The notes below the pieces were generated by a model. The model saw only the letters and a program-made list of their open reading frames with translations, ran no database searches and had not been told where the DNA came from. Below, piece by piece: positions 44,732 to 49,170 of a DNA stretch of 49,920 bases. The DNA comes from an uncultured Sporosarcina sp. GTDB taxonomy: Bacteria > Bacillota > Bacilli > Bacillales_A > Planococcaceae. How positions within the stretch are numbered: position 1 is the stretch's first letter; every line of letters starts with the position of its first letter. The stretch covers positions 1-49,920 of the forward strand of contig CAOKMT010000015.1 of the NCBI GenBank assembly GCA_948469885.1, read 5' to 3'. Both the position numbers and the translations under genes were made by a program.

Positions 44732-45733
44732 CTATGTAGATTTACGCACAATCAACGTAGGCGAATAACGTATAATCTTATTCGCTTTCTTCTCTTTGTT
44801 CGTAACTTTCTCCAACAATAATTCGGCCGCATGTTTGCCTATCTCGAACGCAGGCTGCGATGCAATCGTTAAAGCTGGATCGAATATTTCTGAATACGGT
44901 ACCTCATCGATACTTACTAATGCGACATCTGCTGGAACTTGCAATTCTTTTTCCTTTAGAAATTTCAAAGCTTCTAACAACGCTAAATCATTCCCACAAA
45001 TAAGGGAGTCCGGCGGATTAGAGTGGCTGAACATCTTTTCCAATTCGTTTCCGATCTCCTCTTTTTTCACACCGGCATAATAGCAATCATTAAGAGGAAG
45101 TGAATGCTTGCTAAGACTTTTTTTATATCCCTCCAATCGTTCAACCCGGGGCGTAATCCGGCGTTCCAACGAAGAGGTGATAAAGGCGATCCTTTTATAC
45201 CCGTTTGCCACGAGATGATCGACAAGTATTTCCGAAGCTTTCATATTGTCCAAAAGAATCGTGCTTACATTCGTCTCCTCGACAATTCGGTCTACAAAAA
45301 CTAAAGGATAAGCTTCTTTGTCCATTTTTTTGTAAAGATCTATATTCCCGCCTGTTGGAAAAATAATAAGTCCATCAACTTGTTTAGCCCTAAGCATTTC
45401 AATATAATTACGCTCTTTTTTAGGGTTATCATCTGCATTACAGACAATGACGTGCACATTAGCGGTATGACAAGCATCTTCAATCGCTCGAATAACTTGT
45501 GTAGAAAATGTATGCAAAATATTCGCAACGACAACACCAATTGTGGACGTCTTTTTCCGCGTCAAACTTCTGGCAATATAATTAGGTCGATAATTCAACT
45601 CTTTAATTGCCAGTTCAATTCTTTCTTTCGTCTCGCTGCTCATGTATTGATACCGATTGTTGATATATTGAGATACCGTACTTTTCGAGACATTCGCTTT
45701 CTTAGCAACATCCGCCATCGTTACCGCTTTCAT
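44732..45733 (-). CDS. kdgR: LacI family repressor of the sugar-acid operon (KdgR-like)
   Basis: Of 333 residues. The N terminus (VTMADVAKKANVSKSTVSQY and NNRYQYMSSETKERI, then a hinge helix with NYIARSLTRKK) is the LacI DNA-binding domain. A periplasmic-binding-type sensor follows from VVVANILHTFS. It is the first gene of the nine-gene operon and its own promoter contains the 40-bp operator, so it is autoregulated. KDG is the usual inducer of KdgR-type repressors. GGAGAG precedes the ATG. Confidence 0.92.
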   Translation of the reverse strand: MKAVTMADVAKKANVSKSTVSQYINNRYQYMSSETKERIELAIKELNYRPNYIARSLTRKKTSTIGVVVANILHTFSTQVIRAIEDACHTANVHVIVCNADDNPKKERNYIEMLRAKQVDGLIIFPTGGNIDLYKKMDKEAYPLVFVDRIVEETNVSTILLDNMKASEILVDHLVANGYKRIAFITSSLERRITPRVERLEGYKKSLSKHSLPLNDCYYAGVKKEEIGNELEKMFSHSNPPDSLICGNDLALLEALKFLKEKELQVPADVALVSIDEVPYSEIFDPALTIASQPAFEIGKHAAELLLEKVTNKEKKANKIIRYSPTLIVRKST

Positions 45734-45767: not shown

Positions 45768-45807
45768 CTAAACCGATTTACTAAACCGGTTTAGTAAATC
45801 GGTTTAG
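45768..45807. promoter_or_regulatory. 40-bp perfect palindrome, three overlapping LacI-type operators
   Basis: CTAAACCGATTTACTAAACC is followed directly by its own reverse complement. The three CG centres at 45774, 45787 and 45800 are spaced by 13 bp, each in a TAAA(C/T)CG(G/A)TTTA context. It covers the transcription start of the operon, so repressor binding would block the promoter. Confidence 0.85.
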
Positions 45808-45811
45808 TGTT

Positions 45812-46000: not shown

Positions 46001-46044
46001 AAAAGACTGTCAATCCCACCTTTAAAAAGATGAGGTTGACAGTC
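46001..46044 (-). terminator. Terminator after the 52-aa gene
   Basis: GACTGTCAA (46005-46013) pairs with TTGACAGTC (46036-46044), with CCT/AGG further in. On the minus strand CTTTTT follows. It ends the relP transcript about 105 bases past the small gene. Confidence 0.7.
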
Positions 46045-46150
46045 CAACATTGAATTTTTTATAGGGTAAACAGATCACTGTTTAAGGTCCCCACGGCTGT
46101 ACTTTATATTTCTCTATTAAGAAGTTATCAGAGAACGCATCCTATGAACT

Positions 46151-46309
46151 TTAAAATGATTTAACTCTTTCTATGTGGATGCGTTTACATAACTGCACAT
46201 TAACCCCTTGTTGTTGGAGTTTTTCAGCAAGTTGTTCAGTCGTCAATAAACGTTTTCTTAAAATGGGATATTCAATTTTAGGTTTGGCTTTCACGTAGCT
46301 CACTTCCAT
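46151..46309 (-). CDS. Small basic protein, 52 aa, downstream of relP
   Basis: A frame below the usual size cut-off, with a perfect AGGAGG six bases before the ATG. It starts MEVSYVKAKPKIEYPILRKR and continues LLTTEQLAEKLQQQG, a helix-turn-helix-like helical segment. It is basic, with no membrane segment. It starts 40 bases after the relP stop on the same strand and shares its transcript. No family recognised. A modulator or partner of the synthetase is a hypothesis from position only. Confidence 0.65.
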   Translation of the reverse strand: MEVSYVKAKPKIEYPILRKRLLTTEQLAEKLQQQGVNVQLCKRIHIERVKSF

Positions 46310-46349: not shown

Positions 46350-46997
46350 TTAATTTAACCTTTTGACCTCTTCGTGAATTCTCATCATTTTTTCATCCAT
46401 TAATTTAGCAGTTTGCGCTGCTGTCAGCAGTTCTTTTTCCAAATAACTAGGAATTTTTTTGTCATACTTATAATATATTTTGTGTTCCAAACTTGCCCAA
46501 AAGTCCATCGCTAACGTCCGCAGCTGTATTTCAGCATAAATGTTTTCTATGCCGTGGGACAAGGTTACAGGGATTTTGATAATTAGATGCAAACTTTGAT
46601 ACCCGTTCGGCTTTGGTGATCTGATATAATCCTTTACCTCGATAATTTTGATATCTTTTCGGTTTGACAGCTGAGTAAAAATATCATAGATGTCCGTCAC
46701 AAAGGAGCAAACGATCCTCATCCCAGCGATATCGAATATAGATTCCTTTGCATGCGGCAAGGTAGATACAATGTTTTTTCTTTCTAGTTTTGCCTTAATA
46801 CTTTCCACATTTTTAATTCTCGTTTGGATATGTTCGATTGGATTGTAGTCATTCAAATACTTTGCTTCCTCGGCCATAATATTGATTTTCGTTTTCAATT
46901 CATCTAACGCAAATTTATAGGGTAATAAGAAGCGTCTCCATATTTCCCGATTTTCCATTTCAAATTTCCTCGTGTCTTTGACTTCCGCTAACTTCAT
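46350..46997 (-). CDS. relP: Small alarmone synthetase, RelP (YwaC)-like
   Basis: Of 215 residues, a single RelA/SpoT synthetase domain with no hydrolase. KFALDELKTKI, NPIEHIQTRIK, DIAGMRIVCSFVTDIYDI, DYIRSPKPNGYQSLHLII and EIQLRTLAMDFWASLEHKIYYK are the SAS blocks, closest by pattern to Bacillus YwaC/RelP. It makes (p)ppGpp from GTP or GDP and ATP. In Bacillus, ywaC answers cell-wall stress sigma factors. Here a divergent TetR gene and five operators flank the promoter. AAAGAGGAG precedes the ATG; 11 in-frame codons upstream overlap operator 1. Confidence 0.92.
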   Translation of the reverse strand: MKLAEVKDTRKFEMENREIWRRFLLPYKFALDELKTKINIMAEEAKYLNDYNPIEHIQTRIKNVESIKAKLERKNIVSTLPHAKESIFDIAGMRIVCSFVTDIYDIFTQLSNRKDIKIIEVKDYIRSPKPNGYQSLHLIIKIPVTLSHGIENIYAEIQLRTLAMDFWASLEHKIYYKYDKKIPSYLEKELLTAAQTAKLMDEKMMRIHEEVKRLN

Positions 46998-47054
46998 AGT
47001 AAGCTCCTCTTTCCTAACTAAAAGTGACACCTTGTCATAATATAGCTTGGATTA

Positions 47055-47083
47055 ATAATAAATGACATCGTGTCACTTGTCAA
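47055..47083 (-). promoter_or_regulatory. Sigma-A promoter of relP
   Basis: On the minus strand TTGACA, a 17-base spacer and TATTAT. Operator 2 lies exactly within the spacer, so repressor binding should exclude the polymerase. Confidence 0.85.
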
Positions 47084-47114
47084 CAAATAATATGACAAGG
47101 TGTCACTCTTATTG

Positions 47115-47143
47115 TTGACCTATGACAAATCGTCATTTATGAT
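47115..47143 (+). promoter_or_regulatory. Sigma-A promoter of the tetR gene
   Basis: TTGACC, a 17-base spacer and TATGAT. Operator 4 lies inside the spacer, which predicts autorepression. Confidence 0.8.
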
Positions 47144-47197
47144 TAGGTTAATTTACGACATAATGTCATTTGGGTAACTAAATTGGAGGATGTGTGA

Positions 47198-47821
47198 ATG
47201 CCTAAACAAACCTTTTTTAATTTATCTAGAGACAAACAGGAAAATTTAATTCACTCGGCAAAGAAAGAATTTTCAAGAGTTCCTTTGTATGAAGCATCCA
47301 TTTCCAATATTATTAAAAACGCGGGAATCCCACGGGGTAGTTTTTATCAATATTTTGAGGATAAAGAGGATGTATTCTTCTTTATCTTGGATGAGTATGC
47401 TAAACAAAACGGCGAGCGATTTGCCTCCTTACTCAGAGAGTATAATGGCGATTTATTTGACTCTTTTCTAGGCATGTTTCAATCGATGTTAAAGGATTTT
47501 CAAAACGAAGAGAACCGTATTTTTTTTAGGAATGCCTTTTTAAACATGAATTACAAAGTAGAAAAAACGTTTACCAAAAATATGAACATCGGTAAATTAA
47601 AAGACCGTCATTTAGAAATTATAGGACTGATCAATATCGAAAATTTGAATATGGCTAATGAGCAAGATTTATTTCACGTCATCAAAATTATGATGGCAAT
47701 CACACTTCAAAATCTTATTCAAAATTTCGCAATGGACTTATCTTTCGAGGAATCTTTAAAAGACTATACATTGGAAGTGGAACTACTTAAAAAAGGGCTA
47801 TATCGCAACGAACATGAATAG
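47198..47821 (+). CDS. TetR/AcrR family repressor of relP
   Basis: Of 207 residues. The N-terminal helix-turn-helix (SISNIIKNAGIPRGSFYQYF and EDKEDVFFFIL) is of TetR type. The C-terminal half is a helical ligand domain with few cues (FRNAFLNMNYKVEKTF). TGGAGGA lies before the ATG. It is divergent from relP over the five-operator region and so probably represses both. The ligand is unknown; a hydrophobic drug, lipid or cell-wall intermediate would fit TetR habits. Confidence 0.9.
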   Translation: MPKQTFFNLSRDKQENLIHSAKKEFSRVPLYEASISNIIKNAGIPRGSFYQYFEDKEDVFFFILDEYAKQNGERFASLLREYNGDLFDSFLGMFQSMLKDFQNEENRIFFRNAFLNMNYKVEKTFTKNMNIGKLKDRHLEIIGLINIENLNMANEQDLFHVIKIMMAITLQNLIQNFAMDLSFEESLKDYTLEVELLKKGLYRNEHE

Positions 47822-47823
47822 GT

Positions 47824-47857
47824 AAAAGCGAATCCCATTATTTCAGGATTCGCTTTT
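47824..47857. terminator. Terminator of the tetR gene
   Basis: AAAAGCGAATCC (47824-47835) pairs with GGATTCGCTTTT (47846-47857). It lies three bases after the TetR stop and is bidirectional with the hydrolase gene that ends at 47878. Confidence 0.88.
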
Positions 47858-47877: not shown

Positions 47878-49170
47878 TCAACTTAGACCTGATGGTTCCT
47901 TTCTACGTCCCGTCCTCCTTTTTGAAGACAATTCTTGATCAAAATGTAAAAGCGTGTTCCCCAACGCTTGGATTCCTTTTGCAACTTGACCGTAATCAGT
48001 CCATTCTTCAGGACAATGACTTTTACCGTCCTGACTCGGAACAAAGATCATGCCAACAGGCGCCACTTCTGCAATTTGCATCCCATCATGACCGGCACCA
48101 CTCGGCAAAAACATTGTTGCGCCAAGCGGCTGACAACTTTTTTCAATACCTGTCAGCACTTCTTCCTCCACAACAACTGGATCCGAGTGGGATAACTGAT
48201 TCGTCGTAATGGAAACACCTCGTTGCTGTTGAATTCGTTCCATTTCTTTTTCGAACCGTTCCATCATCTGCACAAACACGTCTTTATCGAGTGAACGAAT
48301 TTCAAATTCAAAAACAACCCGCCCCGGGACGATATTCGGTCCATTCGGCTTCACAGATAACCGCCCAACCGTACCTACCACTTGCTCTGCATACGACAGA
48401 TTCGAAATTTCTTCCAATTTCAAAACGAGTGCCGCGGCTGCTGTCAATGCATCATACCGCATATTCATCGGCGTGGTTCCCGCATGATTCGCCTGCCCCT
48501 CCACAATCACTTCATACCGTTGAATCCCAACAATCCCCGTGACGACCCCTAATACCTTCTCGTTCTGTTCCAACACAGGTCCTTGTTCAATATGCAATTC
48601 CAAATACAAAGACAAATCGCCGGCTTTCAACGCTTCTCTCTCGATTTTTTCAGGCCTGCCCCCCGCAAACTCGAGCGCTTCCCTTAACGTACAACCATCC
48701 GCGTCTTTTCTACCGAGATCCTCTTCCGTCAAATCACCAACCATCCCTCTGCTGCCAATTGTCGAAATGCCAAACTCGCTCGCTTCTTCCGCCGTAAAAT
48801 CAACAACAAGTAAAGGGTGTGCTAATTGAATATTTTGTTCATTCAATTGACGAACGATTTCAATTCCCGCCACAACACCGATGACGCCATCAAATCGGCC
48901 ACCGCCCACAACGGAATCCGTATGAGAACCGATCATGATCGGAGACAGATCAGGATTCGTTCCTTCTCGTCTTCCGACCAAATTGGACGCCGCGTCAATA
49001 TGCACATCAAGTCCACAATTCTCCATTTCTTTTTTCAACCATTCCCGACTCTCCGCGTACCATTTCGTAAAAGGTCGTCTTGTATACCCCGGCGCCGCCT
49101 TATCAACCATTGTAGACAACGTCAATATATCTTGCTTAATTCCCTCTTTGTTTTGCTCAAACATCCCCAT
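47878..49170 (-). CDS. M20 family Zn-dependent hydrolase (AllC/HyuC/AtzC type)
   Basis: Of 430 residues, full length. GSHTDSVVGGGRFDGVIGV (H83, D94), FTAEEASEFG (E128/E129), LELHIEQGPVLEQN near 195 and GAGHDGMQI near 370 form the dinuclear metal site of allantoate amidohydrolase, N-carbamoyl-L-amino-acid hydrolase and beta-ureidopropionase. Substrate is probably a ureido or carbamoyl compound. I place the start at the ATG of MGMFEQ, nine bases after AAGGGGGA; a nearby ATG two codons later is possible. With the PuuE-like deacetylase at the other end of the window it could degrade ureides, but they are 43 kb apart. Confidence 0.88.
   Translation of the reverse strand: MGMFEQNKEGIKQDILTLSTMVDKAAPGYTRRPFTKWYAESREWLKKEMENCGLDVHIDAASNLVGRREGTNPDLSPIMIGSHTDSVVGGGRFDGVIGVVAGIEIVRQLNEQNIQLAHPLLVVDFTAEEASEFGISTIGSRGMVGDLTEEDLGRKDADGCTLREALEFAGGRPEKIEREALKAGDLSLYLELHIEQGPVLEQNEKVLGVVTGIVGIQRYEVIVEGQANHAGTTPMNMRYDALTAAAALVLKLEEISNLSYAEQVVGTVGRLSVKPNGPNIVPGRVVFEFEIRSLDKDVFVQMMERFEKEMERIQQQRGVSITTNQLSHSDPVVVEEEVLTGIEKSCQPLGATMFLPSGAGHDGMQIAEVAPVGMIFVPSQDGKSHCPEEWTDYGQVAKGIQALGNTLLHFDQELSSKRRTGRRKEPSGLS

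Follow-up and report, generated by a model that had tools for sequence, protein, structure and literature searches.

Can the synthesis of alarmones be placed under a dedicated repressor that is encoded beside the synthetase gene? This question is raised by a stretch of 49,920 nucleotides from an uncultured Sporosarcina sp. (assembly GCA_948469885.1, contig CAOKMT010000015.1; hereafter the window), in which relP, a gene for a small alarmone synthetase, and a divergent gene for a TetR-family regulator are separated by a cluster of palindromes. As read from the sequence, TetR would very probably act as a dedicated, autoregulated local repressor of relP and of the microprotein gene that follows it, gated by a small ligand and thereby controlling a growth brake. 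In the relP–tetR intergenic region there are three exact TGACA-N3-TGTCA dyads and two more with one change each, and the starts of the five are separated by steps of 38, 30, 30 and 33 bp (Table 1); these five had been listed in the original prediction, made from the letters of the window, and were confirmed.

The signal lies in the cluster and not in single matches, since scattered matches occur at chance level. Single dyad matches with up to two mismatches are not enriched in the window (25 versus 24.4 expected), those with up to one mismatch number 90 in the genome, near the 75 of a reversed control, and the count of exact dyads (3 versus 2 in that control) is uninformative by itself. All three exact dyads of the 3.59-Mb assembly, which is 88% complete, are located in the relP–tetR intergenic region. 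Five sites with at most one mismatch in such a span have a Poisson probability of ~3e-15 at the genome density. With a matrix built solely from exact sites of other genomes (326 sites), the five candidate operators obtained the five top scores in the window (28.0, 27.1, 25.3, 14.0 and 11.6; the next is 5.8). The flanks outside the selected core are also constrained, a purine preceding and a pyrimidine following it in >99% of the 326 sites, and all five window operators fit this rule. A wider regulon in this genome was considered and rejected, exact sites being confined to the intergenic region and one-mismatch sites being near the control number.

Regarding the arrangement of the operators, two of them were found inside promoter spacers of 17 bp, one of relP and one of tetR, as had been anticipated; taken by themselves, promoter-like matches are no more frequent in the region than expected (9 versus 8.9). 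Counted from the ATG of relP to the near edges of its operators, the distances are 28, 66 and 96 bp; counted from the ATG of tetR, they are 30, 63 and 93 bp. Given these matching distances and the inverted repeat centred on operator 3, the region reads as the usual three-operator cassette present twice, back to back, with the middle operator in common. An alternative, longer relP start, a GTG at 47030, would fall within operator 1. The claim of a row of operators at three-turn spacing, bound cooperatively on the same face, found no support: the 38-, 30- and 33-bp steps correspond to 3.62, 2.86 and 3.14 helical turns, the 38-bp step being 137° and the others 51° off a whole turn. Neighbouring dyads in the compared loci are separated by 28–31 bp in 48 of 122 cases and by 33–40 bp in 64. 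These spacings are better explained by promoter geometry, with sites upstream of the −35 element, in the spacer and near the transcription start; the 28–30 bp group in the relatives is narrow, which may reflect some phasing between that operator pair. The places of the operators favour a simple steric block combined with autoregulation.

The link between this TetR and relP recurs in other genomes. Relatives of the TetR were found in 14 of 200 genomes of the same family and in 24 of 398 genomes of the class, the window included in both samples, in 99 of 193 genomes of a second family (that of genome G289), and in a scan of GTDB contigs, from which the best 80 of 523 confirmed matches were taken. 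relP accompanies the TetR in four of the other 199 family genomes, in 14 of these best 80 GTDB loci and, of the 116 genomes of the second family that bear relP, in 40. With six of the 14 GTDB loci equated with six of the 40, there are 52 other linked loci distinct by contig, some of which may be near relatives. Exact dyads are present upstream of the first gene in all 52 (40/40 and 12/12), upstream being defined, for the 40 loci, as the interval −450 to +100 relative to the first open frame, with small frames taken from stop to stop. Three upstream sites occur in 31 of the 40, and the third site of locus L198 coincides in part with a potential start codon. In contrast, no exact dyad was found within flanks of up to 1.5 kb in any of 28 relP loci without this TetR; the unlinked relP locus L020 has two one-mismatch matches. 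The comparison thus supports the proposed control of relP by a dedicated TetR, with the dyads as candidate operators. The dyad is there in every other pair, but the divergent order is not: both genes share a strand in 52 of 52 and the window is the sole divergent case seen.

Table 1. Gene content and operator, promoter and terminator sequences of the relP–tetR module (window positions)
Feature	Position	Strand	Description
Terminator of the relP–microprotein unit	46004-46045	-	intrinsic; hairpin -23.5 kcal/mol, z -5.2, then UUUUU
52-amino-acid microprotein gene	46151-46309	-	second gene of the relP unit, 40 bp after relP; AGGAGG upstream
relP	46350-46997	-	SAS2/YwaC-like small alarmone synthetase, 215 amino acids; ATG at 46997; GAGGAG upstream
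Operator 1	47025-47037	none	exact; between relP -10 and relP Shine-Dalgarno
Inverted repeat	47053-47145	none	imperfect, 45 nt, 71%; centred on operator 3; promoters mirror each other
Operator 2	47063-47075	none	exact; occupies relP -35/-10 spacer
relP promoter	47083-47055	-	TTGACA-17-TATTAT; 11/12 consensus match; holds operator 2
Operator 3	47093-47105	none	exact; centre common to both three-operator cassettes
tetR promoter	47115-47143	+	TTGACC-17-TATGAT; 10/12 consensus match; holds operator 4
Operator 4	47123-47135	none	one change; occupies tetR -35/-10 spacer
Operator 5	47156-47168	none	one change; between tetR -10 and tetR Shine-Dalgarno
tetR	47198-47821	+	207 amino acids; TetR_N + TetR_C_19; GGAGG upstream
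Terminator of tetR	47826-47855	+	intrinsic; hairpin -13.0 kcal/mol, z -6.05, then UUUUU

Gene order varies among the 40 linked loci of the second family: microprotein-relP-DUF5392-tetR in 22, tetR-relP in 11, microprotein-relP-tetR in three, relP-tetR in two, and relP-DUF5392-tetR and tetR-microprotein-relP in one each. In 28 of them the dyads are followed by relP and then tetR on one strand, in 12 by tetR and then relP, and a gene for a DUF5392 protein, of the kind also seen at L125:3562-3987, lies between the two in 23. In two of the 11 tetR-relP loci, L232 (1842-2252) and L226 (1851-2261), an Spx/ArsC-like gene is found between tetR and relP; this reading was made frame by frame for these two loci, and the Spx-like character was confirmed for L232 and judged by eye for L226. 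Alarmone and Spx outputs would there be under one repressor.

The dyads accompany the TetR beyond its relP-linked members. An exact dyad is present in 23 of the 24 TetR loci of the class sample. The family sample and the best 80 of 523 GTDB matches were merged into a set of 90 loci (the window and 89 relatives), from which the duplicates L054, L058 and L064 and the near-copy L009 had been dropped; 83 of the 89 relatives have an exact dyad somewhere in the locus, and a cluster of at least two occurs in 77 of the 90 (window included). Of the 77 loci, 70 have a dyad within a sigma-A-like spacer (at least 9/12), versus 310 of 3690 triplets placed at random, a comparison that does not preserve the dyad letters. 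Seven chosen genomes were also compared for RTGACA-N3-TGTCAY sites: in the six that bear the TetR, 14 of 15 sites are at the tetR operon (all sites in five genomes, 3/4 in the sixth), the seventh, which lacks this TetR, has none, and the reversed control gave one site in one genome and none in six. The neighbour of TetR in loci without relP is mostly a transporter, sometimes an Spx-like protein or FtsH. Among 53 of the 71 such loci, taking the nearest plausible partner by our own choice and allowing one protein to count in two families, there are 23 MFS, seven ABC, six ArsC-family (one of the six was tested, and is Spx-like), five FtsX-like and four RND proteins, three FtsH, two DUF5392 and single others. 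The label 'other' given to locus L118 in the tree, spacing and dyad counts is provisional, as this locus starts 37 bases before tetR, too close to show whether relP is present. Transporter operons of this TetR clade have the same promoter-operator cassette as the window, where relP takes the place of the transporter; a microprotein, DUF5392 or Spx-like gene is added in some. Genes for an FtsH-like (L103:4687-6510) and a YidC/SpoIIIJ-like protein (L098:4614-4981) lie directly downstream of TetRs of this clade, and an Spx-like regulator gene (L097:4665-5084) lies beside another.

The history of the pairing is not a simple one. On a quick TetR tree of 85 of the 90 rows, made without L017, L115, L118, L126 and L127 (partial or long rows), relP linkage changes eight times, and a single origin of the link was rejected by an approximately unbiased test (p 1.2e-7 against one clade). 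Because no single clade unites the relP-linked TetRs, TetR and relP have come together or separated repeatedly, a history in which the tree does not distinguish gains from losses. Several points weigh against dedicated control of relP in the window. The nearest tree relatives of its TetR are not relP-linked, so that the relP link of this TetR rests on its operators, and its RelP forms a long branch outside the grouping of most TetR-linked RelPs. The arrangement is a minority one: across the class, relP (called at E <= 1e-55) is present in 76 of 398 genomes and TetR-linked in four, window included. Six of the 89 relatives' loci lack an exact dyad, and at 88% completeness of the assembly further TetR targets could be missing. 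Control on the relP side is a prediction from the DNA.

The regulator itself has both domains of its family over cut-off, the helix-turn-helix TetR_N (1.3e-8) and the ligand-binding TetR_C_19 (8.7e-33), and a putative palindromic operator overlaps its own promoter, as in other TetR-family members. Its nearest solved relative is 3vok/3vox/3vp5, Lactococcus lactis HrtR, described in PMC12670364 as a TetR repressor solved on promoter DNA, which leaves its 15-bp site upon heme binding. Most of the similarity falls in residues 1–127 (87.9 of 94.3 bits). HrtR (3VOX/3VP5) and the window TetR have the N-terminal start and the segment IPRGSFYQYFED in common, the latter of which we take to be the recognition helix, and like HrtR the window TetR would repress an operon holding its own gene. 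That it is also a heme sensor, with relP responding to heme toxicity, is nonetheless improbable. The axial heme histidines of HrtR, at positions 72 and 149, are matched in the window TetR by G72 and L170 (the second aligned segment is weak, 8.4 bits), so that heme sensing through these residues is not supported; the output is an alarmone synthetase, not heme efflux, and the partners of the TetR are diverse. An FtsX-like permease domain, of the type carried by HrtB, occurs in five of the 53 partner proteins. An invariant histidine, H160, common to 11 aligned TetR relatives, leaves some room for a metal or heme role.

RelP is a predicted (p)ppGpp/pGpp synthetase. It contains the RelA/SpoT synthetase domain alone (Pfam RelA_SpoT, 1.8e-34), has the length of the RelP/YwaC class (~210–250 residues) and is nearer YwaC (221.7 bits) than YjbM (155.1 bits), its best solved relative being B. 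subtilis YwaC (6fgk, 8.4e-65); the NCBIfam YjbM equivalog is under cut-off (207.5 of 320). It keeps 62 and differs at nine of the alignment columns with a conservation of at least 97% among the other compared RelPs. The PADLOC model PDC-S33 matches its RelA/SpoT stretch (1.1e-23), and 22 plasmid records hold a RelP relative, all <60% identical. Small alarmone synthetases are also induced via sigma factors. In Streptococcus mutans, relP adjoins its own regulator genes, relRS; relP is beside a regulator in both cases, a TetR in the window and a two-component system there. The same kind of enzyme is encoded by relP/ywaC (SasA), which is transcriptionally stress-induced under VraRS in S. aureus or WalKR in B. 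subtilis, according to PMC10117726. These are two-component systems, whereas the window has a one-component repressor encoded next door. Such known control, together with the transporters that mostly adjoin relatives of this TetR, would fit dyads that serve tetR autoregulation alone, relP being a bystander under cell-wall stress regulators; however, each of the three exact operators is either on the relP side or common to both sides, with one in the relP spacer, and relP lies behind the dyads either before or after tetR in the 40 linked loci, which leaves this explanation a slimmer chance than heme sensing. Among the open-access papers listed, judged by title and the start of the abstract, none describes TetR control of relP, which is weak evidence of absence as subscription journals are mostly outside this literature; the operator, in several spelled forms, had no match in it.

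The second gene of the relP unit encodes a member of an unannotated microprotein family, as judged by its homologues. The window protein has no match in Pfam, NCBIfam, PHROG or PADLOC, its relatives reach 0.02 at best against PHROG, and the family profile found nothing significant among solved structures (best E 0.053). This profile, built in two rounds from nine seeds, found 17 small open reading frames in TetR loci (eight of the 17 by construction, eight seeds being from the searched loci) and one, in L026, upstream of a relP that does not have this TetR in its neighbourhood, every match being at E 1.3e-7 or lower and the next one at 0.17. Under a loose rule and with no control, a Shine-Dalgarno-like stretch accompanies one or more candidate starts in each of these frames. 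The microprotein is present in 10 of 19 loci with relP versus eight of 71 without, an association that ignores shared descent. In the second family, 26 of the 40 linked loci encode it ahead of relP, and there the ratio of nonsynonymous to synonymous polymorphism (pN/pS, from 154 non-independent pairs and without significance test) is 0.48 in frame, compared with 0.88 and 1.21 in the two alternative frames, showing signs of purifying selection. The original view of the 52-residue protein as part of the module is supported by these comparisons. Similar L..QGINA..CK small frames occur outside the TetR clade, at L026:2173-2340 and around position 1500 of L130, L131, L132, L134, L135, L137 and L141, some of them, by eye, near other TetR-like, PrsA-like or cardiolipin-synthase-like genes, and weaker look-alikes are found elsewhere in the class; the family may be wider than the clade. 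That relP and the microprotein form a toxSAS-type toxin-antitoxin pair regulated by TetR is the least probable explanation of all: antitoxin genes often precede the toxin gene, as the small gene does in those 26 loci, but RelP is closest to YwaC among solved proteins, and the microprotein also accompanies transporters and other genes, was not found in 14 of the 40 and follows relP in the window.

Concerning the surroundings of the module, its G+C content is 34.0% versus 41.1% for the window, a value as low being found in two of 481 overlapping windows of module size, which fits acquisition but does not prove it. No RNA element was matched between 45000 and 48500 by Rfam at gathering thresholds. 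About three copies of the palindromic unit TAAACCGGTTTAG at 45769-45808 lie immediately upstream of a gene for a LacI-type regulator (44732-45733, minus strand) and are possibly its operators. The gene at 47878-49164 is over the NCBIfam cut-off for the N-carbamyl-L-glutamate amidohydrolase ErtE (550.8 versus 520 bits).

Dedicated repression of relP by TetR would operate as follows. A TetR dimer would occupy the RTGACA-N3-TGTCAY operators that cover the −35/−10 spacer and the start region of both promoters, blocking RNA polymerase; we infer this binding, the repression and the autoregulation from the operator sequences. The strong sites on the relP side (three exact) and the weaker set on the tetR side (two imperfect and the common one) predict tight repression of relP and looser autoregulation. 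A small ligand would then free the DNA, most likely a membrane-active or pump-substrate-like compound, because the TetR relatives mostly adjoin transporters; the terms 'ligand-gated' and 'antibiotic-sensing' likewise derive from the usual partners of the clade, and the ligand class and the role of the microprotein are guesses. The partner genes (transporters, Spx-like, FtsH, alarmone synthetase) suggest a signal in the form of a compound stressing membrane or proteins. From the freed promoter, RelP would make (p)ppGpp/pGpp with the microprotein co-expressed, so that a chemical signal would be turned into a growth brake.

A broader proposal is more tentative and, on balance, somewhat doubtful: that an efflux-type ligand sensor was re-wired several times to an alarmone synthetase as a separate input to the stringent response, with a dedicated partner peptide of ~40 residues (core KLQ.QGVNA..CK(R/K)P) modulating RelP or TetR, so that a chemical threat would set (p)ppGpp without starvation. 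The analysis reveals an unannotated microprotein family tied to TetR-relP-type operons, and the module offers a defined promoter and operator set for ligand hunting. If a dedicated, probably ligand-gated repressor is indeed at work here, one chemical would set the (p)ppGpp level and slow growth, which would link chemical sensing to tolerance.
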